Positions 3,053-33,665 of a DNA stretch of 64,000 nt are shown here, in pieces. Numbering within the stretch: position 1 is the first letter of the stretch; each line of letters starts with the position of its first letter. The DNA comes from Paragonimus westermani (taxonomy: Eukaryota; Platyhelminthes; Trematoda; Plagiorchiida; Troglotrematidae). The stretch covers positions 1 through 64,000 of the forward strand of contig QNGE01001676.1 of NCBI GenBank assembly GCA_008508345.1, in the 5' to 3' direction. Below the pieces are notes generated by a model. That model saw only the letters and a list, made by a program, of their open reading frames with translations, had not been told where the DNA came from and searched no databases. A program made the translations under genes and the position numbers.

Positions 3053-6000
3053 TTGGGCTCAAACACATGTGACACCCAACCATTCTCTAATGAGCTCATT
3101 TTAAGAACATCAGACCAAGCAATGCCACCAGAGCCTTTGAATCACAAAGATATTTCTGTTTTAGGCATTTTTGAAGGTCTTAAAATGATGTGGAACAAGA
3201 AAGATGCACTAGGTTTTCTTCTTTCCACTGCACGTTTGCCACTTAATAAGATGCGTATCTTTAGATCCTTTGTCTACTTATATAATCCCCATATTATTCT
3301 AATCATTGAAGCTTGGTGCACCACTGAGACTACATATGCACAACTAAACGTTGTAGGTTGTCATGTTTCGCAGAAATCGTGGTGTAAGACTAGATGGAGG
3401 ATGTTCAATCTACCTAAGGGCGCAATATTCTGCAACCATACTCGATTAACCATGTCTTGGTATGATAGATGTCTCCTTGTGGCTGTTGTTGTCGACTGGA
3501 TCCTGTGAATTACTCTTAGGATGTGTCTACACACCACATAACGCCACTCAGGACGACATGACGAGCCTTATCAATGAATTGAACTATGTATCAACCTTAC
3601 CGTCACAGCACAAAATAATTGGCGGAGACTTCAACATGCTCAGTAGCTCCTGGATCTCTTTCACTGGCCTTGCAAATCAAGCTGAGTTTCTTGCGTGTGT
3701 CCAACTAAACAGATGGCGCCAGCATGTTTTAGCGCCTGCTAGAAAAGACCACACATTAGACCCCATCTTCACCACAGGCATCTCTTCTGCTGCTGTATCA
3801 GTCTTGGAACGATTTCCAGGAAGTGATCATAACATAGTCAACTTCATGTTCGACCTAAATGCTGTTAAAGAGTCGACCGTCATACACTATCGTCAAACTA
3901 AATTGGTCGACTGGAACGTGTTCACCACGCTGCTGAGATCTCTGGAACAGAACACATTTTTTCCTACCTCTGATCCTAGTATGCAACCGAGGCAATCAAT
4001 GAAAACCTCAGGTCTTGCATAAACATCTTAGACCCGCAAAGATCAAAGCACCGTAATGTAAACGGTGACGACATAATTCTCAATCCAAAGGAGCAAGGTG
4101 AGATCAAACGTCCTACATCATGGTACCGGAAAACACGCGACTTCTCTCTTATCATGCAAATGCATAAACTGTTCAATGCTATCGGATATAGGACCAAAAT
4201 GCCCCAGATGAGAGAAGAAAAACGTGCGCTTAACAGCACAGATAAGAGCTCGCAGTAAATGCAGTTGATGAGACGCAGAAATAATGAGAGAGACCCTGCC
4301 ATCTCAGTAGTGACACTACAGGACAAAACCACTGTAGGTGATCCCGCAACAATCTGTGAGGTCCTTAATTCGTATTTTGCTGCTCCCTTCAACAGTGAAG
4401 GACACATACTGCTCACACCTCCCGTAGGTACAAGTACGTTCGTAAGCCATAAACCTGTTGATGCAGGGCTCATACGTTCTCAGTTAGCTATTATCAAACT
4501 TTCTCACCTGCCTGGTCCTGATGGTATTCACCCCGTTGTTCTAAAATACGAAGGTGAGGACATCCCTCTACTTCTGCTTAATATTTATACAAATTCTCTG
4601 ACATCAGGTTCCCTCCCTCTTCAGTGGGAAAACTCTGTAATTAAGTCCCGCTAGAAAAGTGGCTCGCGACATGACGTCAACAATTATCGTCCCATTAACC
4701 ATACTTCAATTTGTTCCAGGGTGTTGGAAAGGATAAGAAAATGAAACATGGTCGAACTCCCGTTATCACAAAACCTCATAAACCACTCCCAGCATGGGTT
4801 TCTCAGCAAACATTCTTGCGTGACACGCCAGCTAGAATTTCTTAACCATGTGACAGAATCTGCTGACGCCGGTGGGACGATTATCATTGTACTGTTGGAC
4901 GTGGAGAAGGCCTTCAATCGTGTGCCTCATGAGCGTCTTCTGCCCAACATAGCATCCTTTGGTATATGTGATCCATTGCTTAGGTGGTTTTCCTCACACC
5001 TTACAGGCCGCACACAAAGTGGAAGTAGGAGACAACAGCTCAACTTCCAGGCCAGTCACTAGTGGGATGATACAAGGAAGAGTTCTGGGAACGTTACTCC
5101 TTCTCTCATATATAAAAACGATATTTGTCAAATTATCAAGCAGGGTAAACTATTCCTATTCGCTGATGGTGTCAAACTTGTTCGCAGCCTTCCTCCTGGC
5201 GATCTAAATTCATGTTTAGAAAATATACGGGAAGACTTCATGTTACTAGAGACTTGGTGTCAAACGTGGCTGATGAAATTTTCAGTCAACAAATCCACTA
5301 TCGTTGTGCATGGTTGTCACGTACCGGATGGTTTTATGAAGCTGGACGGTCACAGCATATCAATCGCCAACTCAGTACGTGACCTGAGTTTGCGCTACTC
5401 AAACTCATCCAACTTCGCGATGCATATAGCTTTTGTAGTCGCTGAAACCAGACGGACGATAGGTTACATTAAACACTAATTCTTCCTACCTGCTGCACGA
5501 CTACACCTTTATAAACTATGTGTACGACCTCAGTTTGAGTACTGCACGTTCATATATAGCCACCTGCGCAAGTCTGATGGGCTAACCCTGGAAAGCCTCC
5601 GATGTGCATTCACGAGAAGCTTATTGGGCTATTCATCTTCTCTGAGCTACAGAGAACGTTGCCAGACGCTTGCAATTGATTCTCTTTGGTTACGGCGACT
5701 CAAGCCTAACCTTGCACTCATGTATAATCTGGACCATAGCTCCAAATTCACCATCAGCTCTGCGACTCGCTTATAAAAACAGTCGAAGTATAATCTTAGA
5801 AACAAGGACTTCATCTTGGCAGCTCTTAAATCCCGGAAAATGCTGCGTTCAACTTTTATCCTAGTAAAATATTGCTACATTTGGAACAAACTCCCGTATG
5901 CCATTAGAGCCAGCAGGAATATACACCGATTCAAACGAAACTTGGAAATTTTCTTAACAATGACGAGCGTCGTGTCCATTTTCAAGCTCTACGTGCTGAG

Positions 6001-10201: not shown

Positions 10202-11780
10202 TAATAATGGAACGTTTGGTACTACTGTTGACGATAAATAATTGTTACATGGAACGTAAAATATGTGGATTCAGAAAGATTTACAGTGAGTGCGATAAGA
10301 TGAAAGTCAGATGAGATAGTCTGCTCTCCTGAAGAAGTATGGACCAAACCCTTCGTCAAACTACGGAATGTGACCCATCTCCTAAAACCTAGAGCATTTG
10401 GTATTTCGGAAGAATCCTTTAAGTCGACAATGCTTTTTAAACACATGACGGTTATCTTGGTGCTCAACAGGGTTAACATTAAAGTGATGCGATTCAACTG
10501 ATTCATTTATTCAGTGAGTTACTATCCAAACTGTCGTTGTTGTTGGCGTGCCTGCTTCCCAACATATCGGCATTGAAAAACACCGTAGCTGCAACACCCC
10601 GAACTTGCTGACTGAGAACCCTAGTGAACTGGAATGTTATCCCATTATGTAATAATAACTTTCGCTTTATACAAGAGGTCTTGCTTCCTGTAATTACCAG
10701 AGCTCACCGCTGAATTTGTAAGCGGTCGCAAAAATTATATTCCGCAGCCTAGGATTGAGGAGGTGGTAGGAATATGCGAGCATCTTGGCTCTCCTTGCTC
10801 AAAGAGTTGAAGTTTGCCTTTGACGAAGCTTGTAGTGTCTGCAGATTATAATTATTGTTTGCAAGTCATTTTCATATACACTTGTAAATACCGTTTCGAC
10901 GACTCCGTCTGTATACTTATTTGAAAGCGTCACCACGTTTTTTGAATCAGGTTATCATCAAGAATAAATTTCAATTACCGCCAGCCGTCTCTGTCTTCTT
11001 CGTTTGCGTGGATGTTTGGGCCGGTAAATTAATCGCAAGGCGAAGCTTCTATTAGCTACATGTCTTTGTTGATCTAAGGGCACTGAACGTTCATCATCCC
11101 GCGTTATGTGTGGAATCATCTATCTATCGTCGTAGAAATCTAGCATCTAGCGTTGCCTTTTTCTCGAGGGATAACACATCCAATTCAACGGATTTGGCCT
11201 GTCAGCAAGTCATTCCATTCGTCTTTGCCACGTTTTCTTTTTACTTTTGAGTATACTTTTCGTACACACATTACCGTTACAGCTTCCTTTGGTCTTATCA
11301 TTTGATTAATCATTCCCCTATAGTCGACAGTTTGAACATGCTTTAGCAACGGATTTATCAAAGAAACGTGTGAAAGTGAACCACCAGACTCTGGGAACGC
11401 AGATTCTCCTCAAAACGCACAAATATAGTCCACTGCGGTTTTTTTCTTTTACAAGCTTTTTGCGCAATAAACCAAATTTCAAAGCATTCCAAGTAGTGTT
11501 CGACGCACCGTGAACATAAGTGAATGTTCAGCTAACCCAAACTACAGAAATTCTCACCAAGAAATTTGTTGACCGTAACGGCAAGTGAACCGGTTTGAAA
11601 TACATAATGATGATGGCAGTAACACAGCAAGTGAGCTGATGAAATTGTAGTGTGATGCTTGTCAAGCATAGCTTAATTGTAGACGGCATCATGGAAAGAA
11701 CATAGGGAGTAGTTACCAGTCGCAATCGCTACCGTATTACACTTACATACGGATAACAAAGTCGCAAAAAATTAAGTCAA
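10202..11780. other. No gene recognised
   Basis: The minus frame 10222-10506 may be further gypsy polyprotein remnant but shows no clear motif. The remainder is AT-rich non-coding DNA. Part of it (about 11205-11300) resembles 600-680 in word composition only. Confidence 0.4.
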
Positions 11781-11793
11781 CTAACAGGAAGGT
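11781..11793 (+). repeat. Left target-site duplication of the palindromic element
   Basis: CTAACAGGAAGGT occurs here and again at 12440-12452, immediately outside the inverted structure. A 13-base perfect direct repeat at both edges is what target-primed insertion of a single unit leaves. Confidence 0.7.
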
Positions 11794-11855
11794 ATTACTG
11801 ATAAGTAGTGTGGCAGATTTATTATTTTAGATGAGACCCAACTGTGAAAAGTCAG

Positions 11856-11935
11856 GGCTTCGACTGGATTCGAACCATCGACTGACACAGTATGCCTCAA
11901 CGCGGCAAGCGCTCTACCAGCTGAGCTACGAAGCC
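11856..11935 (-). other. tRNA-like sequence, left arm
   Basis: Read on the minus strand it begins GGCTTCG and ends CGAAGCC, a perfect 7-bp acceptor stem. The A box TAGCTCAGCTGG and B box GGTTCGAATCC are canonical, and a D stem GCTC/GAGC forms. The anticodon stem can form only partly (TGCC/GGCA around a 7-base loop with GTT in the anticodon place), U33 is replaced by C, and the variable region is about 12 nt. The T stem has a mismatch. I therefore read it as a pol III-type tRNA-derived module and not as a working tRNA gene. Confidence 0.7.
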
Positions 11936-12334
11936 ACACCAGGAGCTCGGAAATTTCACATTTGGACTCGGTTACCCACCCGTCCCACTGTCTCATATGG
12001 AATCCACCAAATGATTCAGGGGATCGACTGCTCCGGCAGGATTTCTCAAACAGTTCACGCTGGAATCCACCAACGCCACTGCTGAGCATAGAAATTGTAT
12101 TGCTAACAAGTAGTTCGGCAGATTTATGATTTTAGATGAGACCCAACTGTGAAATTCTACTTGTTAGCAATACAATTTCTATGCTCAGCAGTGGCGTTGG
12201 TGGATTCCAGCGTGAACTGTTCGAGAAATCCTGCCGGGGCAGTCGATCCCCTGAATCATTTGGTGGATTCCATATGAGACAGTGGGACTGGTGGGTAACA
12301 GAGTCCAACTGTGAAATTTCCGAGCTCTCGGTGT

Positions 12335-12414
12335 GGCTTCGTAGCTCAGCTGGTAGAGCGCTTGCCGCGTTGAGGCATACTGTGTCAGTCGATGGTTCGA
12401 ATCCAGTCGAAGCC
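12335..12414 (+). other. tRNA-like sequence, right arm
   Basis: This is the reverse complement of 11856-11935, with the same acceptor stem, A box and B box. It lies about 25 bases inside the right edge of the element, with transcription directed outwards. Confidence 0.7.
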
Positions 12415-12439
12415 CTGACTTTTCACAGTTGGGTCTCAT

Positions 12440-12452
12440 CTAACAGGAAGGT
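12440..12452 (+). repeat. Right target-site duplication of the palindromic element
   Basis: This is an exact copy of 11781-11793. Its first bases (CTAA) happen to pair with the inner left arm, so the precise right edge is uncertain by about 4 bases. Confidence 0.7.
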
Positions 12453-15400
12453 GTAAGTGGATTGCCCAGTTACCCGTATCGACAGGTAGGCGATCACTAT
12501 CGGGCTGATGCCCGTCAACACAAAAGCGGTTTTCTGGAGTACTCATGTGATATTCCGAATTATTTCCATAAGTTATTCAGTATTTCATTCAATGGTAGAA
12601 AAGGCGCATTTTTGAACCGCGTTAGTTGTTATCGTTTCCGGAGGCTGTCTGGGTTCATTTAGTCGAGGTATATAAGTGTAGTATGTTACGTGAGACGTAC
12701 AAGGTCATTCGTATTACCACGAAAATAAAGTACATTTGTGAGAAGAACATTAACACGATAACCCATTCACATTCATCATACTATGCGATGCGTTTCGTTT
12801 TATCATGATATGATTCAGTAATGTGATGATGTGACTTTTTGGATAATGATATTACAAAAGAAGACAGCAACCAAGATAGTAAGTTACGTATGGTCGTCCT
12901 GAACGATTCATGTCGTTCTCGATTGTACGCAGTGAACGCCCAACGACTCTGCTAGCACCAATTAGTGATTTATCTGAGGGGTGAATTAGGGAGGGGATTT
13001 GAAACAGAATACTTGGCGCAACCTTAACAAGTGTAACGGACTGAGAACTAGTTTGAATGTATAACGAAAACTTCCTGGAATTGCATTAAATGCAATTACT
13101 TTGTGTTAGTTACCTCATATAGTCTATAGGTACTGAATATGCTGGCTCACAAGCAAATATATTTATTCTCATGAACCAAAACATTGTTGGTCGAAAGAAT
13201 TCATCCCTAGACCTTTTCGAAACCAGCCCTAATCTACCCCTAAACTGAATTCCTAATTGGTGCTAGTAGGGGAACCCTGGGGTTTATGAATAAACCCCTG
13301 GCTATTAATGGATTCTATAATTAGAAATCGCACAGTTTAAGCCTACGCCTCGTAACTGGCGGAAAAATTTCGAACGTGTTTTAGTCTTCCTCAAAGCGTT
13401 CGGTTGCGAATCCCAAAAACACTCAGAAGGCAACTATATATATATATATATAGTCATCAGCTTATATATAAGCTCCTCGAGATATTTCCTGAAGGATCCT
13501 TCAATAACGCAAAGTGTGGTTACACCGGGTGCTTTCTCATTTGCTCGGGCGGCGTCAGTAAAAAAACAGCCAGTAAGTCCAGAAGAATATATTCTTGGAG
13601 TATATATTCATCGCCAAATTGAACAACTTATGTGCATTACGTGATACACACCTTGACTTATACGAGATGAAGTACTTATGAGAGCGTTTTATTCGACATA
13701 AACTTATGCATATGTTACCTAATACAAGTTGGGAAATCGATCGTGCTCCTGGACTACAGTCATAATAGTATGACCAACGTCGACACAACTCTGTGTCTGC
13801 GAAGTACAAAACATCACATTTGATCATTTCATATTTGATCTTCACTATACTCGCTGTTGAAACGCTCCCAACGGGTTAGGGCAATTCACTCAGTGACAGG
13901 CACTCAAAATTTTAGCCAGCGCTTATTCAAAAGATTGAGTTAACAGAAATTTTTACCGGGTTCCAATAATAGAATTGCTCAATAAAATTACACTGAACTT
14001 TAACTCCAGCGTGAATCAATCGGATATACAACTTATACAGCAAAGACGTTCAAACTGGGGTGACCAAACACGAACCCGCCAGTCAGCGGGAAACAGGTTC
14101 ATTAAAACAGTCGGGTGCAGACAAAGAAAAAAGACCGACCAACAATACCAAGAAGGAATCTGCAACAGATAGGCAGTAAGAGTTATAAAAGAAAAAAAGC
14201 AAACATTCCATGTGTAGTTGTGGTGCGAAATTCATCACTGTCGTTTACTGCACACAGCAGAGAAAAATGAAGGTGAATTTAGGAACGGCTTTCCAACAAC
14301 GAACCAAGCATAGCTCAACATATTCACTGCCCCGCATCACATCGAACAAAAACGACAAACGTACCAGCCGAACCTAAATAGATCCAAAACTCACCATCAT
14401 GTATATGAAAACCCCGCCTTTTTACCGATTTTGCCTCACGTGGTATGTATTCAGCAAATATACTGACAAGGGTACACATATAGTTATAGAGACTTCTGTG
14501 GTGTCAGTTATCGTCCCATAATATGTGAGGGCATTAAGATGCAGGTTGTGGATGACTCCACTTGTATATCTAGGTGCTCAGCATTTATCGCTCAAAATAT
14601 CTGCGTTGTTTTGCTTCTTCAATTTAGTCTATCCTGTTTTAATGGGCTGGTGGTACGCGCTCGGTTACTGTCCACCATTACTTGAGAACTTCATTCCTGA
14701 AAATCATTCGAACAGGTGTTGCGTCAAAAGAGTGTGGTGGGGTTTCAGAAAAAAACCATATTTCTAACAATGTTTGAAAATATAATAAACGGTTGACTCT
14801 AATCCGGTGTGGGATCAACGGCGGCAGCCAACAAGGTAAAAAAGAACCAAAAATGAGCCGGAGCTCACCAGGCGGCACACAAAGTGCGAGTCAAATACAA
14901 AAGACTCAGAAACTTTGATCACATTGAAAGTCATTTCAGAAAAGTGTACGTTGAAGATTCTTGAAGAAAAGAACAGCAGACAGGTAGTGCAAAGAAAGCA
15001 AGCATTTGCTGCGTGCAGTTATTTGCAAGACGAAAATAACTGACGCTGAGTTCTTATCGTAAATTCTACAACAAATATACACAGAAGTACGCGTATAGAA
15101 CAAATTGGCAAAAAACGTGTTTCCTTTCAAACCAAGAGTCTTGAATAGGTGCACATCAGCCGCAACAGTGCACTGTGAGTAATATAAAAACTTACATAAC
15201 TGCGAGTACTGTTAACTAAGTGTGTGCATGAGTTTAGATATCAAGCATTCCTTTAAGTACTTCATTGTACAAAATACTCAGTGAGGTAGCAACTTAATGT
15301 TAATATCCCAAAGTGGCAAATATGTCGGCTGAGTAAATGCATTAAAAGATCATTGAATTTCACTATGATGTAGGTGGGTTGAATCTAGACTATCTACCAT

Positions 15401-19705: not shown

Positions 19706-19829
19706 TTGAATAATGCAGGCAGAATACTAACATCACATGCTCTCTGCCAGAGTACGATATGCTGCGTCTTCGCTGGTGTTTAGTGCAGCATACACATCAT
19801 ATGGAGCAAAACTTCAGGATTGACAAAGA
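19706..19829 (+). repeat. 124-bp direct repeat, copy 1
   Basis: It matches 20152-20275 at a constant offset of 446 bases with few substitutions. The two copies share the long run from ACATCACATGCTCTCTGCC through GGAGCAAAACTTCAGGA. The second copy lies inside the inverted duplication at 19908-20369, and this first copy does not. Confidence 0.85.
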
Positions 19830-19907
19830 GGAAGGCCACCCGAGGTGGTTGACACGTAGAGTATTACAACTTGCTCGAAACGTTGTGTTATTCCCAATCT
19901 GTATATC
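19829..19907 (+). repeat. Conserved repeat motif shared with 36840-36920
   Basis: GAAGGCCACCCGAGGTGG and the following TTACAACTTGCTC...ACGTTGT block align with the reverse complement of 36840-36920 (GAAGGCCACCAGAGGTGG, TTACAACTTACTCC...ACGTTGT). This is a conserved segment of a dispersed repeat family that I cannot name. Confidence 0.55.
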
Positions 19908-20369
19908 AAAGCTCGAGTTTTTTACGGAAATGGAAAATGCGGAAATGCAACCATCCGTTCTAAATAGCAGTGCGGAGCATGGAGTGCTAAAAGGGAAACG
20001 AGATGAGTTCAGTATTATAAGGTGCATGCGGATTGATGTCTTCCTGCTAATAGTGTTAAACGCCAGTATTTTGAACCATGTAAATCTTTGACGTAACTGG
20101 CTTCAGTAACCAAACCGGAAAATGACAGAAAGGGTCGCATACGGTGGGGAGTTGAATAATGCAGACAGAATATTAACATCACATGCTCTCTGCCAGAGTA
20201 CGATATGCTGCGTCTTCGCTGGTATTTAGTGCAGCATACACATCATATGGAGCAAAACTTCAGGAGTGACAAAGATGGAACCCTGTTTGGTTGTCGCCTT
20301 GTCAGTGTGAGTGATGAACCTAGTTTCTTCTGTGCGCACACAGTGAGGTGGCAGTATCAGATTGCATGT
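19908..20369 (+). repeat. 462-bp inverted duplication, left copy
   Basis: It is the reverse complement of 22908-23369. I compared several long stretches of the two copies and found no difference, and the lengths agree exactly. The frames over it (for example 20205-20402 here and 22866-23072 on the other strand) are mirror images and resemble no family, so I do not call them genes. Confidence 0.9.
20152..20275 (+). repeat. 124-bp direct repeat, copy 2
   Basis: This is the partner of 19706-19829 and lies inside the left inverted arm. Its reverse complement is therefore also present once within 22908-23369. Confidence 0.85.
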
Positions 20370-22907: not shown

Positions 22908-23369
22908 ACATGCAATCTGATACTGCCACCTCACTGTGTGCGCACAGAAGAAACTAGGTTCATCACTCACACTGACAAGGCGACAACCAAACAGGGTTCC
23001 ATCTTTGTCACTCCTGAAGTTTTGCTCCATATGATGTGTATGCTGCACTAAATACCAGCGAAGACGCAGCATATCGTACTCTGGCAGAGAGCATGTGATG
23101 TTAATATTCTGTCTGCATTATTCAACTCCCCACCGTATGCGACCCTTTCTGTCATTTTCCGGTTTGGTTACTGAAGCCAGTTACGTCAAAGATTTACATG
23201 GTTCAAAATACTGGCGTTTAACACTATTAGCAGGAAGACATCAATCCGCATGCACCTTATAATACTGAACTCATCTCGTTTCCCTTTTAGCACTCCATGC
23301 TCCGCACTGCTATTTAGAACGGATGGTTGCATTTCCGCATTTTCCATTTCCGTAAAAAACTCGAGCTTT
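22908..23369 (-). repeat. 462-bp inverted duplication, right copy
   Basis: This is the reverse complement of 19908-20369. The outer junction on both sides falls at AAAGCTCGAG and the inner junction at GATTGCATGT. I see no target-site duplication at either edge. Confidence 0.9.
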
Positions 23370-25133: not shown

Positions 25134-27952
25134 GATGGAGCAACGCAGCCGTTCGCATACTGGTATTTTCAATATCGTAATCAGCTTGTGACTTAATAAG
25201 AACGCGCATACTGCAATGAGTGGGTGGTGTGATTCAGATCTCGTCTGAGTGCTTGCCCACTCGGGCGTTATTGAACGATTCCATTTTCAACGGCTAGTTA
25301 AAACCGCGGGTTAATCCAACAACGACATGGTTAAAAATATGAAAGTCGTGGCTGTTCCGTTAGATGAAGTCGACAGGTGGAGTCTGTCTACATACGGACC
25401 CGGTGATCGGTTTGGAACAACTAGCTCCTTTTAACAGTCTTGAGAAAGTAATAAAGGCGTGTAGCTCTTGAACCTTATTCTGATCACAACTTCTTACATT
25501 TCGAACACCTAGGCGCGTGTAACTTAGTAATTAGGGAAACGCTAACTTAGCAGTAGACAGCTAATATTTTGTTACATAATTGTGTTCAGCATTACACAGA
25601 GAGGCTTCAACAATCGTTGACTACCCGGTTGGGTGCATACTTCACAAAAAGACTGTACAATCACTTAGTCACTCTGACTGTACTAGCTGCCTCAAAAACT
25701 GAAATTCATTCTCCTTTATCGTCAAGCACATACGCCAGACATGTAACATCGTGTATGTCACAAATATATTTATTATAATGTTGCGCATCACGGGCGAAAC
25801 TTCGTGCAATTTGCTGTGATTAAACCAGCCAAATATGTTAGTCACTCTTTTGTTGCTTAGAAGAGGTCACGTCGAAGCTACGGGGACCCTGATAACCCAA
25901 TAGGACGCGGTAGTGAAGAATTTGTGGCAACAACTCGGGTAAGATTAAATAGTTATCCTAAGTTTATCTGCCTTGTAAAGTTTCTTGCGCGGTGGTTACG
26001 CCATTATAGCAAGCCAGCAACTCCTCACTCAGCTCTAGATCATGATATAAGACAACTGGCTTGCAGGAAACTGACAAAAGAACTTGATGTGGTCAGTGGT
26101 GAGGTAACATTCGTAGGCCCTGCTTGCGTGTCGTACTGAAAGCATATTGACCAACTTGGCTTCTGATTGTAGGGGAAAACACCTATTCGATTTATGTAGA
26201 TTGACTGCTGCCATTTTTTTAAAAAGTGCCTCTGAAGTACGGGCAATCAATGCAGTGCGCCAGCTGACCGCAGATACTGCTTGGCACTCTCTTTAATCAG
26301 GGTGGCTGTTTTGCTTGTCAACACCCAACTGCTGATTAGTTTAAGAAGTATCAAAGTATGCCATCCATATACTTTTGTTGATGACATACTTGGCTTGAGA
26401 TGTTGCAACTAAAAATAATGTTGACTAAGTACCACTTCAAACTTTTCCCAAATTTTCCTCTGTGGTGCCGCCTTTGCATTACTGAAAATTCAAAACCCTG
26501 GGCCATTGTTGACTGCTATTTGGACTGTTCATTAGGTCTTTTTCTTTACTGCCTAGGTGAGAACATGACAGCGAAACCTCTAGATGAATGAAGTTGACTC
26601 ACAAATAACATGCATACTAGCTACAACTTTGACAGGTGGTATGGATATTTTCGATAACTAAACGTCGGCAGCCATTTTAAATTTAGTGTTTTACTGCATT
26701 CTTCATGTAGCAGACGATGGGTAGGTATGCAAAAGAACATTATGCGTGCAACACTGTGTCAATATATTGATGAAGCGAGTTCAAATAGTGGTCCCCCTTG
26801 AGTCAGAAGGCACAGATTACGGTGTGAATTCATTTCATACACACTCGTCAGTCGTGAACTAGTGGTTAGCATGTAGACAGAACAACGCAGTCATCGCTGT
26901 ATATAATTGGAAGAATAATGAGTGACAGTAAAAATTAAATTGTCAACAAGGAAATCCTAATAGCCATTCACTTTTTGCATGTGTGCTCACTTAAGAACTT
27001 TCCGGACGTCCTCATGCTTGTCACCCGTTCACAACTGGCAGGAGTGCATGAGATGAATTCATACAGCAATCTATGCTTTTTAATAACTCTACTCAAATAT
27101 GAAAGCTATTAGAAACCTATACCCAAATATCCTATAAAATTTGACAATTATATTCCATTCTAACTAAACGACGTTATCTGACTATTTTCAATTTTCTTTC
27201 ATACCTACATAATGCGGATTGATGTGAGGCAGCGTAGACTGGGTTCGAAAACACAAGTGGCTGTATGGGTTTTTGAGACACATTTTCAAATCCCACTTTG
27301 ACAACTGGCAGTTTTATATTGTATATGTGTATTTATTAATCATGAGCTGAGGCAGGCGGCAACCGAAAGATGCGGATTTCCGGATGCAGTGGGCTAACTG
27401 AAGACTACTGTCCAAGCTTAATATCTATGAAACGTAATACCTTCTTCTAACATTATGTACATCTGGAGCATAAATATGATTTTTTTAAATATCTCACCCT
27501 GATACGTCCGTATTGCCTCGGTAGTGTCTGGCAGCTAACATGGATATATTAGTCGTATTTTGGTTCACTCAGACCACATTTACGAATTGTGATAAGATAC
27601 CTCAAATTAAAGAACTTATCAGTAACAAGACTCTCGATACTTGTGACCACACTGTTCAGCCGAGATGAGTTAGCGAACAGGAGAAGCTGGTGAAACGCAG
27701 CGTAACCTGCATAGTTTACAATAAAAATCATGGAGCTTATGAAAGGCTTTCTGTGTGGCTCGAGAGAGACAGACCATATCGGATTACTTTGTGGTTAACG
27801 ACCATGTACGCATATCGACATAGGGGGGAAACAAAATATTTGTGAATTCAGCCCATTGTTCAAAAACCTGGGTTAAGAATATCATGAGCAGTGAGTTATT
27901 CCGGCACTAGAAGCTAACTTTATTCTTAAAATCGGCGTAGAGTTTTCGTTTA
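25134..27952. other. No gene recognised
   Basis: Only short frames occur (25569-25778, 25924-26139, 26400-26591), none with domains or paired splice sites. A B-box-like word near 26785 and an A-box-like AGTGGTTAGCA near 26860 are in the wrong order for a pol III gene and are probably chance or repeat debris. Confidence 0.45.
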
Positions 27953-28151
27953 ACAGCAACCAGATATACATCATATTTACTGAGATTTCGATAACCAGAT
28001 GCCTTAATTCAGAGACCAACTGACAATAGCTTGAATGCTATTTGTTTTGGGTCACTTCCACGTAATATGATGATCGTGTTCAAGAAAGAAACAGGATGAG
28101 TGTCTCTAAAGTGAACAAATGAGGGTCATTTCTCAAAATTATATCTATTTT
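27953..28151 (+). repeat. Diverged inverted repeat, left copy
   Basis: It aligns over about 200 bases with the reverse complement of 29566-29760, including the shared TTAATTCAGAGACCAACTGA, ACAGGATGAGTGTCTCTAAA and GAGGGTCATT words. By eye more than four fifths of positions agree. It is an old dispersed repeat present in both orientations, with no intact frame. Confidence 0.8.
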
Positions 28152-28910
28152 GGCATATGAAATTTGTGCTGAAGTTATCGTTATTCTCCAGAGATTTACA
28201 ACGAACAGATATTACACGGTGAAAGTACATTAGTATATAGAAAATGGTAACGATAATCACTGTGATCTTTGTGATGCTCTATATAATGCTCGGTATGTCC
28301 CTCCCTATATGCACTACATCCAGAGGGAAGTAGGTAGTTGCGTTATATTTTCTTCCATTAGTCTTGTATATAAGTTAGTATTTGCATTCAGTATTCTTGA
28401 TTACGCACCACAACTGTGAAAAGTTTGATGGCGATATGAAATATAGTGGACAGGCAGTGGGTTCAATGAGTACACGTTTTCCACTTGCTAACTAAGCTTC
28501 TTAAGGAGCAAGAATTCTACGGAAAACTTTAACGAAAACTTGTGCACTAAACCCCTAGTGCGCTCTCGCTATCCTACCAAAATTCTCCCTACCTACCTCA
28601 CATATCAATTTAGTGTGTCTATGTCTTCTAGATTAATTTTTGCTGAAAGATAAACCAGTGGAGTAAGCGCAGCGTAACAGACCATCGATTAAAATGTTCT
28701 CTCGCTTGATTGTGCTTGTATAGCTGACTTATTTTGTGTACGTTTTGCCGTCGTGATGAGGTGATCACTTGTAGATCAAATGCGGGTACACAAGAAGTTA
28801 GACTTGGTTGACGAGTCAAACAGAACATTGGCCTAGCAAACTTTCCGGATTTTTCAAGCCCCTTAAACAGACCAACAAGTTATTGATAATTCGGTCGTGC
28901 CTAATGTGAG

Positions 28911-29090: not shown

Positions 29091-29565
29091 TGTGAGTGAT
29101 GATCGAATTGAAAACAAACGTTTTCAGTTGCAGCATCGCTGAGAACAGATAAAGTATTGATATGCCTAAACAAATTTACCTGTATTTCTGGTGGTTACAA
29201 CACACTGGTTACAGGTACAGAACTGCAAACCGCAAAACAATAACAAAAAGTGATGAAACTGTGAAATCAAGTTCGACTATTATCAAAGCAGCATCAACGT
29301 TGTAACTAGTTCCTGTTGTATGCATAAAGTGAAGTAGCGCTGTGTGACATGAATGACACTGGCATACCGCAGCAGACGTTTGTTATGAGTTGGGAACGTA
29401 ACAGCCAAAATGATTGTTGGGTCATGCACCTGTTGCGTCATTAGCTGACGATGTGTTACTCATGTTGTTGGCCCCTTCCGGATTTACTTTGTCAAGCTGT
29501 TTGTATAACCGTTTGGGGGTCTTTATTGTTAGGGATTTATTGACACACACTTTCTCTTCTGTAGT

Positions 29566-29760
29566 AGATATAATTTTGGGGGAATGACCCTCACTTGTTA
29601 ACTTTAGAGACACTCATCCTGTTTCTCTCTTGCACACGATCACCATATTACGTGAAAGTGGCCCAAAACAAATATCATTCAAGCTATTGTCAGTTGGTCT
29701 CTGAATTAAAGCATCTGATTTACGAAATTTCATCAGATTTGGTGTATATCTGGTTGTTAT
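29566..29760 (-). repeat. Diverged inverted repeat, right copy
   Basis: This is the reverse-orientation partner of 27953-28151. The adjoining minus frame 29422-29613 continues beyond the similarity and is not recognised. Confidence 0.8.
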
Positions 29761-32675
29761 CGGACTAATAAATTATGAAATTTCGCTGTTCACATTGGCT
29801 TGCTAATGACTCGTTCTGAAACATATCGGATGATTTTTAGTTCCCAATTTATTGTAACATGTTGACAATTGTGAATGAACCGTGGCGATGTTTGATAGAT
29901 ATTTTGTGACAAAGATAACGCTAGGCAATAGGTAAGTGTTTCAACTGCTTCAGAATGCACTTCGAATTCTCACAATGCTTGGTGTTCTATGAGGACAGCC
30001 TGCAGGAGTCATAGTTGAATGGCAGCCGTACAATTCTTATCACGGAAATCTTCCATTCGGGTCACCATGCGTTTGTGAAGTATATTGCTGAACTTAAACA
30101 GATGCTTGTAGTGACTGACTGTGTGAGGTATGTGGTCTTATTTATGCAATCTGGAATCCCTCACTCTAGGGTGGGTGGACTTTTTTCAACTCTTCATTGA
30201 GAGAGGACTATGTTTAGTCACACACATCTACTGGCACAACCGGTGGGATACGATGTTGTTAGTAATCGGAGATATGGACAAGCTTTTTAAGTGGGGCAAT
30301 TTGTGTTGTTTTGTGTACTTATAGGTTTAGATGATGTGACAGCGGAGGTCATAAGAGAACCGTGCTTCAGGTGATCTCCTACTGCTGTTCATAACACAGT
30401 TGTTTGTTAAAAAGTTGTACGCATCTTGACGTTAAATGTTTGAATCTGGACAGTGCCTTCTTGTTTTGAGTATTATTTCTCCTCTCACCCTTATCACTAC
30501 AATAAGACTATATTTTCTGATGGTTTCTTAACAATCAAACATGATAGTTAACCACTGTATTGTTATGTGGATTATTAAAGTGATGCGGGTGCAGATGAGA
30601 ATGGTGATTTGACTGTGCAATAAACACATTTATTGACCGGACTACAGACAAATTACTACAGATATTTTAAGCTTTTAACCACACGGATTATCGAGACATT
30701 GTATTTCGAATAGTTCAGGACTGCAACTTCCATGGAATCCTGAAAGCACTTCGAAAATTAGTTTTTTTGTATTGAGTCACTGACAACCGCACCGATTGTC
30801 CCAATAATAGGTGAGGAAAGGTAGGATGTGACTGCAATTATTTTTCACAATCGTGTACATCCGATTAGTCACTTGTTCGATGGTTCTGTGTGTTGTATTT
30901 AGTAGTGCCAAAAAGTCGAGTTTTTTTTCAGGGCCTGGCAACTAGCTTTCTCCCTCGTGAATCACTGGATATCACGCCCGACTGTTGAAGGACTCAACTT
31001 AGATGGAGATTGGTTTGGTGAACAGTACGCTTATATCTACACATAGCGACAGTCCTACAGGCTGATAGTCTTAATGACATAGATTCTGTGGTTCCAGGCG
31101 GTTTGGCTGGCGATTGCTTATCAGGTTTACGAATGTGAATGTTATATTTATGTGAGTGAGTTGAAAATAATTATCTCGGCGAGACCATGCAGTCCGCAGA
31201 ACGGTTGTGGTTAGGAAGTCGTTTTTTACTCACTCACAAATCTGTGGCTTGTTGGCTAGTAGCAAATGAACTCCTTGGCGTTGGTTGGCAATGTCTGCAC
31301 ACTGTTTGGTACATTGTTATTATTTCTTATCAGCATTTATCTCTGAAACAAGGGTTATTTTTTCACACGGCTGAGTGAAAGTTCACCTTCGATGTGTAAC
31401 ACAATTGTACTGATATAAGTTGGCCATCATTCACAACTGATCTCAGCTTTTGCATTCTCACACGCTGTTAAGTGAGATCCCCTTGATTTTTGGGATGATA
31501 AGAATTTGTCTATTTGAACTTACGTATTACCTTGTGCTGCATTGTCTCAACGTCCGATATATCGTACAACGAATGTTTATCAGACTGAAGTCATCTTCCA
31601 ACCAAATACTTAATATACTGCTTCTTCTAAAGATTCAGTTTAAATCGAGCCAGCCACAAGCGGTTTTTCGACATGACCTGATTAGCATCAGACCGTTTCA
31701 ACGAGTATGTAAGCACATGAAATAGAACCGAAAGTTTTTCGTGAAACTTTCGGTTTCAATTAACTGCACGACTTCCGTTCATGCACAGCGGGTTTTGCCA
31801 AGAATACTGGAATTTACATCGAAGCTATTTAGACACTTAGGTTATTTACGGAGCGTATTTTATTTCGTGCTGCTCATTTCAGGTGCATATGAAGTTTCTA
31901 AAGTGCGCTTCACATGACTGATAGAGCGCAACCATGTAGCTGAGTATAAATGGTCGGAGTTATAAATGAACCGAACTGTACGAAACAAATATTGACATTT
32001 CTTTTACTGTACCACATTAAATCAGTCGATTTATTTCATTAAACCGTGCTTTTTGAATTACTTGTATGGTTATGGTGAGTAATAAGAGGCTACAATACGG
32101 AAGAGTCCAAACTGGAAGACTTTTAGACAGAGAATTTTGCAATTTTGTGATATGTGCATTTCATTGAAACTACCCCGAAATGGAAATCCAAGTTATATAA
32201 TATTCTTGATCCATTTTATTGATTACTTATTAAAAAGTGACTAGTCTCACCGCTGATGATGAACATCAATGTTATAGTATTTGCTCAGAAATCGATGAGT
32301 GTTAGCATTGGCAAGCGTTAAGCTATTCATGACACTTGCGTTGAGTTATTTGCAGTTTAATCCAGCTGTTCTTTCAATGTCTTAATGCTTCGTGTTGATA
32401 ATACCTTGTCAGATAACTGATTTTAGTGCATCCGTGGTAATTTTCAGCCCGTTTGATTCTATGATATTGACGTGGACAGTAAATTTTGTCTTGCTTTCAC
32501 TCAGCATGTGCAAGTGGTCTGGCTTTTATGATACCAATCACATGTATATGAATTTTAATGCAATTAGCTGACTTCATGCTCCTCTGGATCCATTTGATAA
32601 AAAAGCGGAAAACCATAAGATAATTCTGATAAATAGTATGACGACGTTGATAAATTAGAGGATGCCCAATTTGCA
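29761..32675. other. No gene recognised
   Basis: AT-rich DNA with short frames only. It contains one perfect hairpin at 31726-31755. I see no paired splice sites around a recognisable exon. Confidence 0.45.
31726..31755. other. Perfect 12-bp hairpin
   Basis: AACCGAAAGTTT is followed after a 6-base loop by its exact reverse complement AAACTTTCGGTT. It is seen directly, with no T-run or context that assigns a role. Confidence 0.8.
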
Positions 32676-32990
32676 AAAGCCATAGATTTCGGTTAGATTC
32701 GAACCAGCGACGAAAACGACTTGTCAAACTCCAATGTTCAGCAGTTGCACTGGTATATTCCTTGGCGTGATGGCAAACTTCTGTTCTGTCAGTTAGTTTT
32801 CTAGACAGTTTGGTGGATTCCACAAGATATGACGGGCTGGTCGGAAAACTAGGTTCAAACGTAAAGTTTCTGAGTTTTCTGAGTGGCTTCGTAGCTCACT
32901 TAGCAGAGGACTCTGTATCCGAGTGTGCTGTCTTTGTGACTAATTCGAATCCAGCCGAATTTCGGATTTTTTGCAGTTGAGTTTCCTTTG
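32676..32990. mobile_element. Diverged second copy of the palindromic tRNA-like element
   Basis: At the left, GATTCGAACCAGCGACG (about 32695) is the inverted B-box end of the tRNA-like unit seen at 11875. Next comes TTCAGCAGT...ATTCCTTGGCGTGA, which aligns with the right-arm start at 12182. The TTTGGTGGATTCCA block (about 32808) and a plus-strand tRNA-like GGCTTCGTAGCTCAC ... AATTCGAATCCAGCCGAA (32885-32957) follow. Thus both inverted ends are present, the left arm being shortened to about 40 bases. Acceptor pairing has decayed. Confidence 0.65.
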
Positions 32991-33665
32991 AATATAATGA
33001 ATTCTTTAAACATATCGAAGAAAAATGTCAAGTTGTAATTATGAAAATAACCGAAGTAATAAATCATCTGATCAAAATTAATCAAAACGACAGTAGCTTT
33101 CACGTTAATGATAGCGGCTTTTAGATGCGTAAGTTCAGTTTTAACCTTGTAACAAGTAATGTTTCATTTCCGTTCGATAGATGCGAACCTTAACAATATG
33201 AATATTTGACGAGCCTCGGTTAATATTCCTAGTCTAAGGAAGACATTTTAGGCACCTAAGTTTCTTACTGTACATCTTAGAGATGTCAGCTACTCATGTG
33301 TTGAGCAATGGTCTTTTACACCTCTGGAAATTCTCTTCACTGAGAACGTGTGATCAAAAGACTGCGGCTTTTTCAGTTTTATTATCCTGACCATCACCTT
33401 CAACTTTTTCGTAACAAACGCAGTAGCATTTGGCACCGAAGTCTAACTCCCACACAATCATGCAATAAAAAATGCGACCTACTCTTAGATCAAAACACGG
33501 GATAAGAATTGGACTTGATTACCACTAGAGGCGTTGTGTCATGCCTTTCTCACCTAGCAAGTCAAAACCTGCAAAGCTACTTTTCGAGGGATATTCTCAG
33601 TCCAACTTGATTACCTACACCTACTTGCAGACAATCAGCTGTTTAAACCAGTGTTTGAAATAATG
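32991..33665. other. No gene recognised
   Basis: Nothing identifiable was seen on either strand. Confidence 0.4.

Follow-up and report, generated by a model that had tools for sequence, protein, structure and literature searches.

The structure at positions 11781-12452 of the window (the whole 64,000-nucleotide stretch of Paragonimus westermani DNA analysed here) is probably one insertion of a small, non-autonomous, tRNA-bearing tandem retroelement that was inserted by a Penelope-type enzyme. The case that this element works like the insertion of a Penelope-like element (PLE) is strong, and by analogy with PLEs the element is likely to be PLE-mobilised. Compared with ordinary SINEs, its Penelope-style ends together with a tRNA-like module form an unusual combination.

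Self-comparison of the locus placed two inverted arms in opposite orientation at 11827-12113 (minus strand) and 12157-12443 (plus strand), each 287 nt long, with 7 mismatches between them and 43 nt separating them (12114-12156), which confirmed the lengths of the arms and centre given in the initial annotation. The whole structure is enclosed by a 13-nt direct repeat, CTAACAGGAAGGT, whose copies at 11781-11793 and 12440-12452 were taken as the left and right copies of a target-site duplication. This flanking repeat had also been reported before and is indeed present; the longest word shared among 2917 random 40-base window pairs, taken at the same spacing in the same sequence, was 9. Because CTAA in the right copy doubles as the element's own ...TCATCTAA, and is thus common to repeat and element, 9 to 13 of the 13 repeat bases are independent. 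For the window locus, a single insertion that produced one target duplication is supported.

The element is composed of a 305-nt unit (its positions are given with the prefix U), in which the tRNA-like module occupies U1-81, the tail region extends to U144 and the body covers U145-305. The left cDNA arm (11792-12154, minus strand) contains U87-144, U145-305 and U1-144 in the sense direction, with its body at 11936-12096 (minus strand); on the outside it stops at U144, the 'tail' site, and an optional 3' tail corresponding to U110-144 is found at this left outer end only (11792-11826, minus strand). The right cDNA arm (12157-12443, plus strand) contains U128-144, U145-305 and U1-109, with its body at 12174-12334 (plus strand), and its outer end is the 'no-tail' site. 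Within the centre, the left cDNA continues into the next unit up to U87, and two extra bases (TT) then precede the right arm. It had been noticed earlier that the left edge recurs at the centre; the recurrence is real, but its length is 58 nt (11792-11849 versus 12097-12154, 90% alike) and not 47, and it represents the next tandem unit, since the left arm is 1.19 tandem units long and a further unit begins there. ORFs of 116 aa and 106 aa run across the arms, and a homologue search with the 106-aa ORF, up to E 10, found none. Weak matches of the centre to a miRNA and to a Wolbachia sRNA lay below the gathering scores and were rejected, a hairpin being able to give such matches.

When the assembly that the window comes from (823 Mb, 9701 contigs) was searched, 5026 first-look candidates were obtained, of which 40 were scored and all 40 examined, namely the one in the window and 39 that were fetched. 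L039 and L040 have an identical left flank, and 39 distinct loci were therefore counted. At many of them units follow one another head to tail in partial or complete tandems, as in L018, where more than four units lie inside a 10-bp duplication, and the 5' ends lie at many places within the unit. Opposite-strand pieces are present in 19 of the 39 distinct loci (L027 having merely a 22-nt piece), a proportion that is no frequency because similarity to the 672-nt window dimer decided the ranking of the loci; the other 20 loci are single-orientation, with several tandem arrays among them. These loci support a mobile family of many copies, inverted (19/39) as well as non-inverted (20/39). Among the loci ranked in this way, many 5' ends and inner ends lie around U56-130, which may be due to the same selection. 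The description of the element as a SINE with a misplaced head is not supported, because the place of the head follows from the point chosen to divide the tandem into units; monomers that begin with a tRNA head, as in a SINE, were not found at these loci, the unit being tandem and the 5' ends scattered.

Three copies came to light without selection by likeness to the dimer. A position-based sample of 20 stretches of 10 kb from long contigs (187,831 readable bases) holds two copies, L050 and L060, both inverted. A second and much older copy, ~63-68% alike, is located in the window itself at 32617-33002, and is also made of opposite-strand pieces: the minus-strand piece (32617-32711) covers U54-143 with its tail end outward, and the plus-strand piece (32716-33002) runs from U127 across a unit to ~U119. 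Three of these three copies are therefore inverted. Six Ts are present at 32967-32972 of the older copy. Relatives in contig collections gave 0 matches with four viral patterns and two genome patterns, and two further contig-collection matches have merely 13-19 nt words in common with the element.

Target duplications of at least 8 nt were found at 13 of the 19 inverted loci and at 6 of 19 single-orientation loci, compared with 1.35% of 1406 mismatched left-right pairs, in a count that left out L039 and L040 (contig end; N). Their lengths vary from 8 to 13, and L045, one of the six single-orientation loci with a duplication, sits in an AT microsatellite. Long inverted arms together with a target duplication would suit a DNA transposon of the Foldback or MITE-like kind, bounded by long terminal inverted repeats, but this origin has next to no probability here: the arms do not form the termini, with the left end ~35 nt further out, the duplications (8-13) and the centres are variable, and single-orientation and tandem copies exist. 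An assembly artefact caused by a fold-back read can be practically discarded as well. Such artefacts occur in long reads, as described in the available part of PMC12870357, but 7 of the 287 arm positions are mismatched, the ends of the structure are asymmetric and 18 other loci carry opposite-strand pieces, which makes an artefact unlikely, and the structure is moreover flanked by a duplication.

Across the 39 loci (n=58 3' ends, taken from local alignments and accurate to a few bases), 20 ends lie at U105-120, 34 at U129-154 and none at U121-128; 54 of the 58 thus fall in two clusters ~35 nt apart, and four lie elsewhere. These two clusters point to two reverse transcription start sites ~35 nt apart. 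Of the 19 inverted loci, 15 combine one tail with one no-tail outer end, while L017, L027, L030 and L038 combine a tail end with a non-standard end, and no inverted locus (0/19) has two ends alike. Single-orientation loci comprise 15 with a tail and five without (n=20). If the two ends were independent, the chance of obtaining 15 discordant loci out of 15, with the four non-standard loci set aside, would be at most 3e-5. Among the three copies not chosen by dimer likeness, the older window copy and L060 are discordant (2/3), and L050 is undecided, since three aligners differ on whether its right end is at U113, U135 or U145. In L030 and L038, a 3' end lies at a third position, within the body near U288.

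This fixed pair of sites bears directly on whether the element could be an ordinary LINE-mobilised tRNA SINE that was inverted by L1-style twin priming, with the second target strand priming within the RNA wherever a microhomology happens to lie. Such an origin would account for the tRNA-derived module, the 8-13 bp duplications and the microhomology (CTAA) with which the window locus ends on the right, and inverted L1 copies likewise show microhomology, of 2-5 bp in ~70%, together with duplications of 10-20 bp (available parts of PMC2912911 and PMC4245944). However, the second priming site is one of the two fixed sites and shows no scatter, for which reason LINE twin priming was dropped, and tandem units would not be predicted. 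SINEs inverted by L1 are, furthermore, very rare, inverted human Alu copies amounting to 1/5554 and to 1/5936 (0.02%) in the portions of PMC2912911 and PMC12016303, respectively, that were available, versus 3/3 unselected copies inverted here. When the LINE in the window was compared with the tail, only chance-level matches were obtained within the window. Taken together, we consider a LINE-mobilised SINE unlikely.

The centre junctions indicate when the dimers were formed. Eight near-full dimers contain seven different centre junctions: extra bases, 2 to 17 in number, are present in five of them (the window locus, L012, L013, L016 and L017), and overlaps of 3-4 bases in the other three (L011, L014 and L015). 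Given this variety, most dimers seem to have been made at insertion from tandem units and, to judge by these eight, so was the window dimer. The initial annotation had proposed that the dimer was copied in as one piece, and this part of its reading stands for at least one pair: L012 and L013 (centres at 948 and 872, tails on opposite sides) have the identical, exact junction with different flanks and duplications, which means that a dimer has been copied at least once. Besides this pair, the inner end of one arm lies at U124-130 in six of the eight near-full dimers (including the window locus, at 12157), a regularity that agrees with a dimer copied as one piece and that our model does not explain. 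As the main replicating form of the family, the dimer is nevertheless very unlikely in view of the seven different junctions among eight dimers, the 20 of 39 loci that are non-inverted, several of them tandem arrays, and the tRNA promoters that face out of the dimer. The two arms of one locus were more alike than the best match from another locus in four of eight dimers by BLAST and in two of eight by MAFFT, a result under which both arms of a dimer may, but need not, derive from a single RNA.

Self-priming, in which the 3' end of the cDNA folds back and copies itself, has been proposed for rotifer Penelope elements from palindromes at inversion junctions (available part of PMC3846280). It could be reconciled with the 3-4 nt junction overlaps in L011, L014 and L015 and with a complementary 14-nt pair (93%) at 11952-11965 and 12143-12156 of the window. 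That pair, though, implies a different and shorter hairpin, the window junction has two extra bases and is without pairing able to prime, and extra junction bases also occur in L012, L013, L016 and L017. Self-priming would also give no reason for the second arm to finish at a different start site from the first, and it is therefore highly unlikely as the source of the inverted arms.

Insertion by a Penelope-type enzyme would proceed as follows. A tandem RNA would hold the 305-nt units, each with tRNA-like module, tail and body, and a GIY-YIG/RT protein would cut both target strands. One target 3' end would prime reverse transcription at ~U144, leaving the tail, and the other would prime at ~U110. 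Each cDNA would then extend toward the 5' end of the RNA, and the two cDNA ends would be joined, giving head-to-head arms with the 3' ends outward.

Several features of the family have a counterpart among PLEs. According to the available part of PMC11167929, PLEs form tandem copies and carry an inverted pLTR with an optional 30-40 bp tail, and the Anolis PLE in vitro cuts and extends both target strands, with reverse transcription starting at two adjacent internal RNA sites and the tail being the stretch between them. A rotifer PLE has a 31-bp tail on one of its inverted pLTRs and duplications of 8-10 bp (PMC3846280, same part as above). Like PAc of Anolis and the Pen families of Adineta vaga, as far as they are covered by those parts of PMC11167929 and PMC3846280, the element here has tandem or partial-tandem copies; it also resembles PLEs in its head-to-head inverted arms, its short target duplications, its two 3' start sites 30-40 nt apart and its optional tail on one inverted arm. 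Tandem copies, two start sites with a tail, and head-to-head arms, which are marks of PLE insertion, are observed. AT-rich target sites are a further trait of PLE insertion. The element differs from PLEs in its 305-nt unit, in having no PLE protein and no hammerhead found, and in its tRNA-like module, and it is by the insertion pattern that the two are likened. For the hammerhead, Rfam gave none at E up to 5 in 11601-12601, and the core motif is absent from the unit. PLEs generally carry a hammerhead, which belongs to PLE identity and not to the PLE insertion signature.

A candidate enzyme was looked for with a GIY-YIG search of the assembly, which gave one match at E <=0.001 (41.7 bits), presumably an SLX1-like exon. 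At E up to 10, at least 150 matches were obtained (281 candidates, 150 scored); the 149 scored matches other than the SLX1-like exon are weak (17.8-28.6 bits), and 18 of the 150 scored matches lie in frames of at least 600 aa. We infer that these matches may include PLE copies. Among the scored matches, six pairs lie less than 3 kb apart, all on opposite strands, and five of them are in minus-then-plus order, which is the head-to-head order of the dimers. The pairs (C8574, C2538, C2781, C1107, C21 and C4526) are perhaps inverted PLE copies.

A tRNA-like module near each outer end, as originally described, was recovered by both ARAGORN and Rfam (RF00005). The modules, at 11855-11935 (minus strand, left arm; Asn-gtt by ARAGORN) and 12335-12415 (plus strand, right arm), are 81 nt long and score 37.7 bits each, the gathering score of RF00005 being 29. 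From these two predictions, the element appears to have a tRNA-derived Pol III promoter. TTTT, a possible Pol III terminator, follows 4 nt past each module, at 11847-11850 (minus strand) and 12420-12423 (plus strand). Since the modules face outward and TTTT lies 4 nt past them, Pol III would be expected to terminate outside the arms. The long hairpin RNA that the initial annotation had suggested is, judged from the sequence, unlikely to come from the element's own promoters, as their transcript would not reach the tail and would not include the arms; read-through from an outside promoter could give such a hairpin.

Several known systems have part of this organization in common with the element. 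Metazoan non-LTR retrozymes are likewise non-autonomous tandem repeats of ~300 nt, and PLEs have been proposed as their mobilising partner, but a type I hammerhead is defining for them (available part of PMC7229834), whereas none was found in the unit here, which has a tRNA-like module instead. tRNA-derived SINEs, such as the Sm-alpha family of Schistosoma mansoni, resemble the element in their tRNA-derived promoter-box module, multicopy state and target duplications, as described in the available part of PMC2770079. Sm-alpha, however, carries a hammerhead, which was not found in the unit here, and the element is set apart from these SINEs by the tandem arrangement of its units, by a fixed pair of 3' ends and by the frequency of its head-to-head inversions. 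Helenus and Ajax, in the part of PMC10886601 available, offer a parallel in that a tRNA or 5S rRNA gene was captured by a non-SINE retroelement; they are, by contrast, LTR elements, and the termini of Helenus are set by LTRs and duplications of 4-6 bp. LTRs with 4-6 bp duplications, as in TRIMs and Helenus, were not seen here: duplications of at least 8 nt are present in 19 of 38 loci, and the ends are variable.

The tRNA-like module would replace the hammerhead in the position that it has in PLEs and animal retrozymes, and would act as a Pol III promoter or as an RNase P / Z processing site for the tandem RNA. We tentatively put forward, as a possibility somewhat short of even, that the family is a PLE-dependent counterpart of SINEs, in which a captured tRNA gene serving as promoter or RNase P/Z site replaced the hammerhead of a retrozyme-like Penelope parasite; we propose as part of this reading a one-site-per-strand rule, by which reverse transcription in each inverted insertion would start at the first site on one target strand and at the second site on the other. 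Both LINEs (through SINEs) and LTR elements (through Helenus, Ajax and Cassandra) have known parasites derived from small-RNA genes. If the proposal is true, Penelope elements would join these two as a third type of partner, and the family would comprise many short insertions from a poorly understood transposition pathway. The one-site-per-strand pattern, in turn, would be a concrete prediction on how the PLE enzyme handles the two target strands. In open-licence PMC, no title was found on a SINE that forms inverted dimers or on a tRNA element mobilised by PLEs, and such work may nonetheless be in print.

Other features of the window were also recorded. A broken LINE at 3450-5476 has an endonuclease domain (PF14529) and reverse transcriptase-like frames. 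The LINE endonuclease and a WWE-domain frame mark the window as eukaryotic. A perfect 462-bp inverted repeat at 19908-20369 and 22908-23369, ~2.5 kb apart, could represent either a young element with long TIRs or a further inverted retro-insertion, and a ~128 bp sub-repeat of it recurs directly at 19706-19833. Further downstream, the inverted repeat at 27957-28168 and 29544-29756 is ~212 nt long and 85% alike. Finally, an old inverted pair of 72 nt (~75% alike, with a loop of ~130 nt) was observed at 26807-26878 and 27008-27079, and it scores 34 compared with 23.3 for the best random pair, a dimer-hitting pair excepted.
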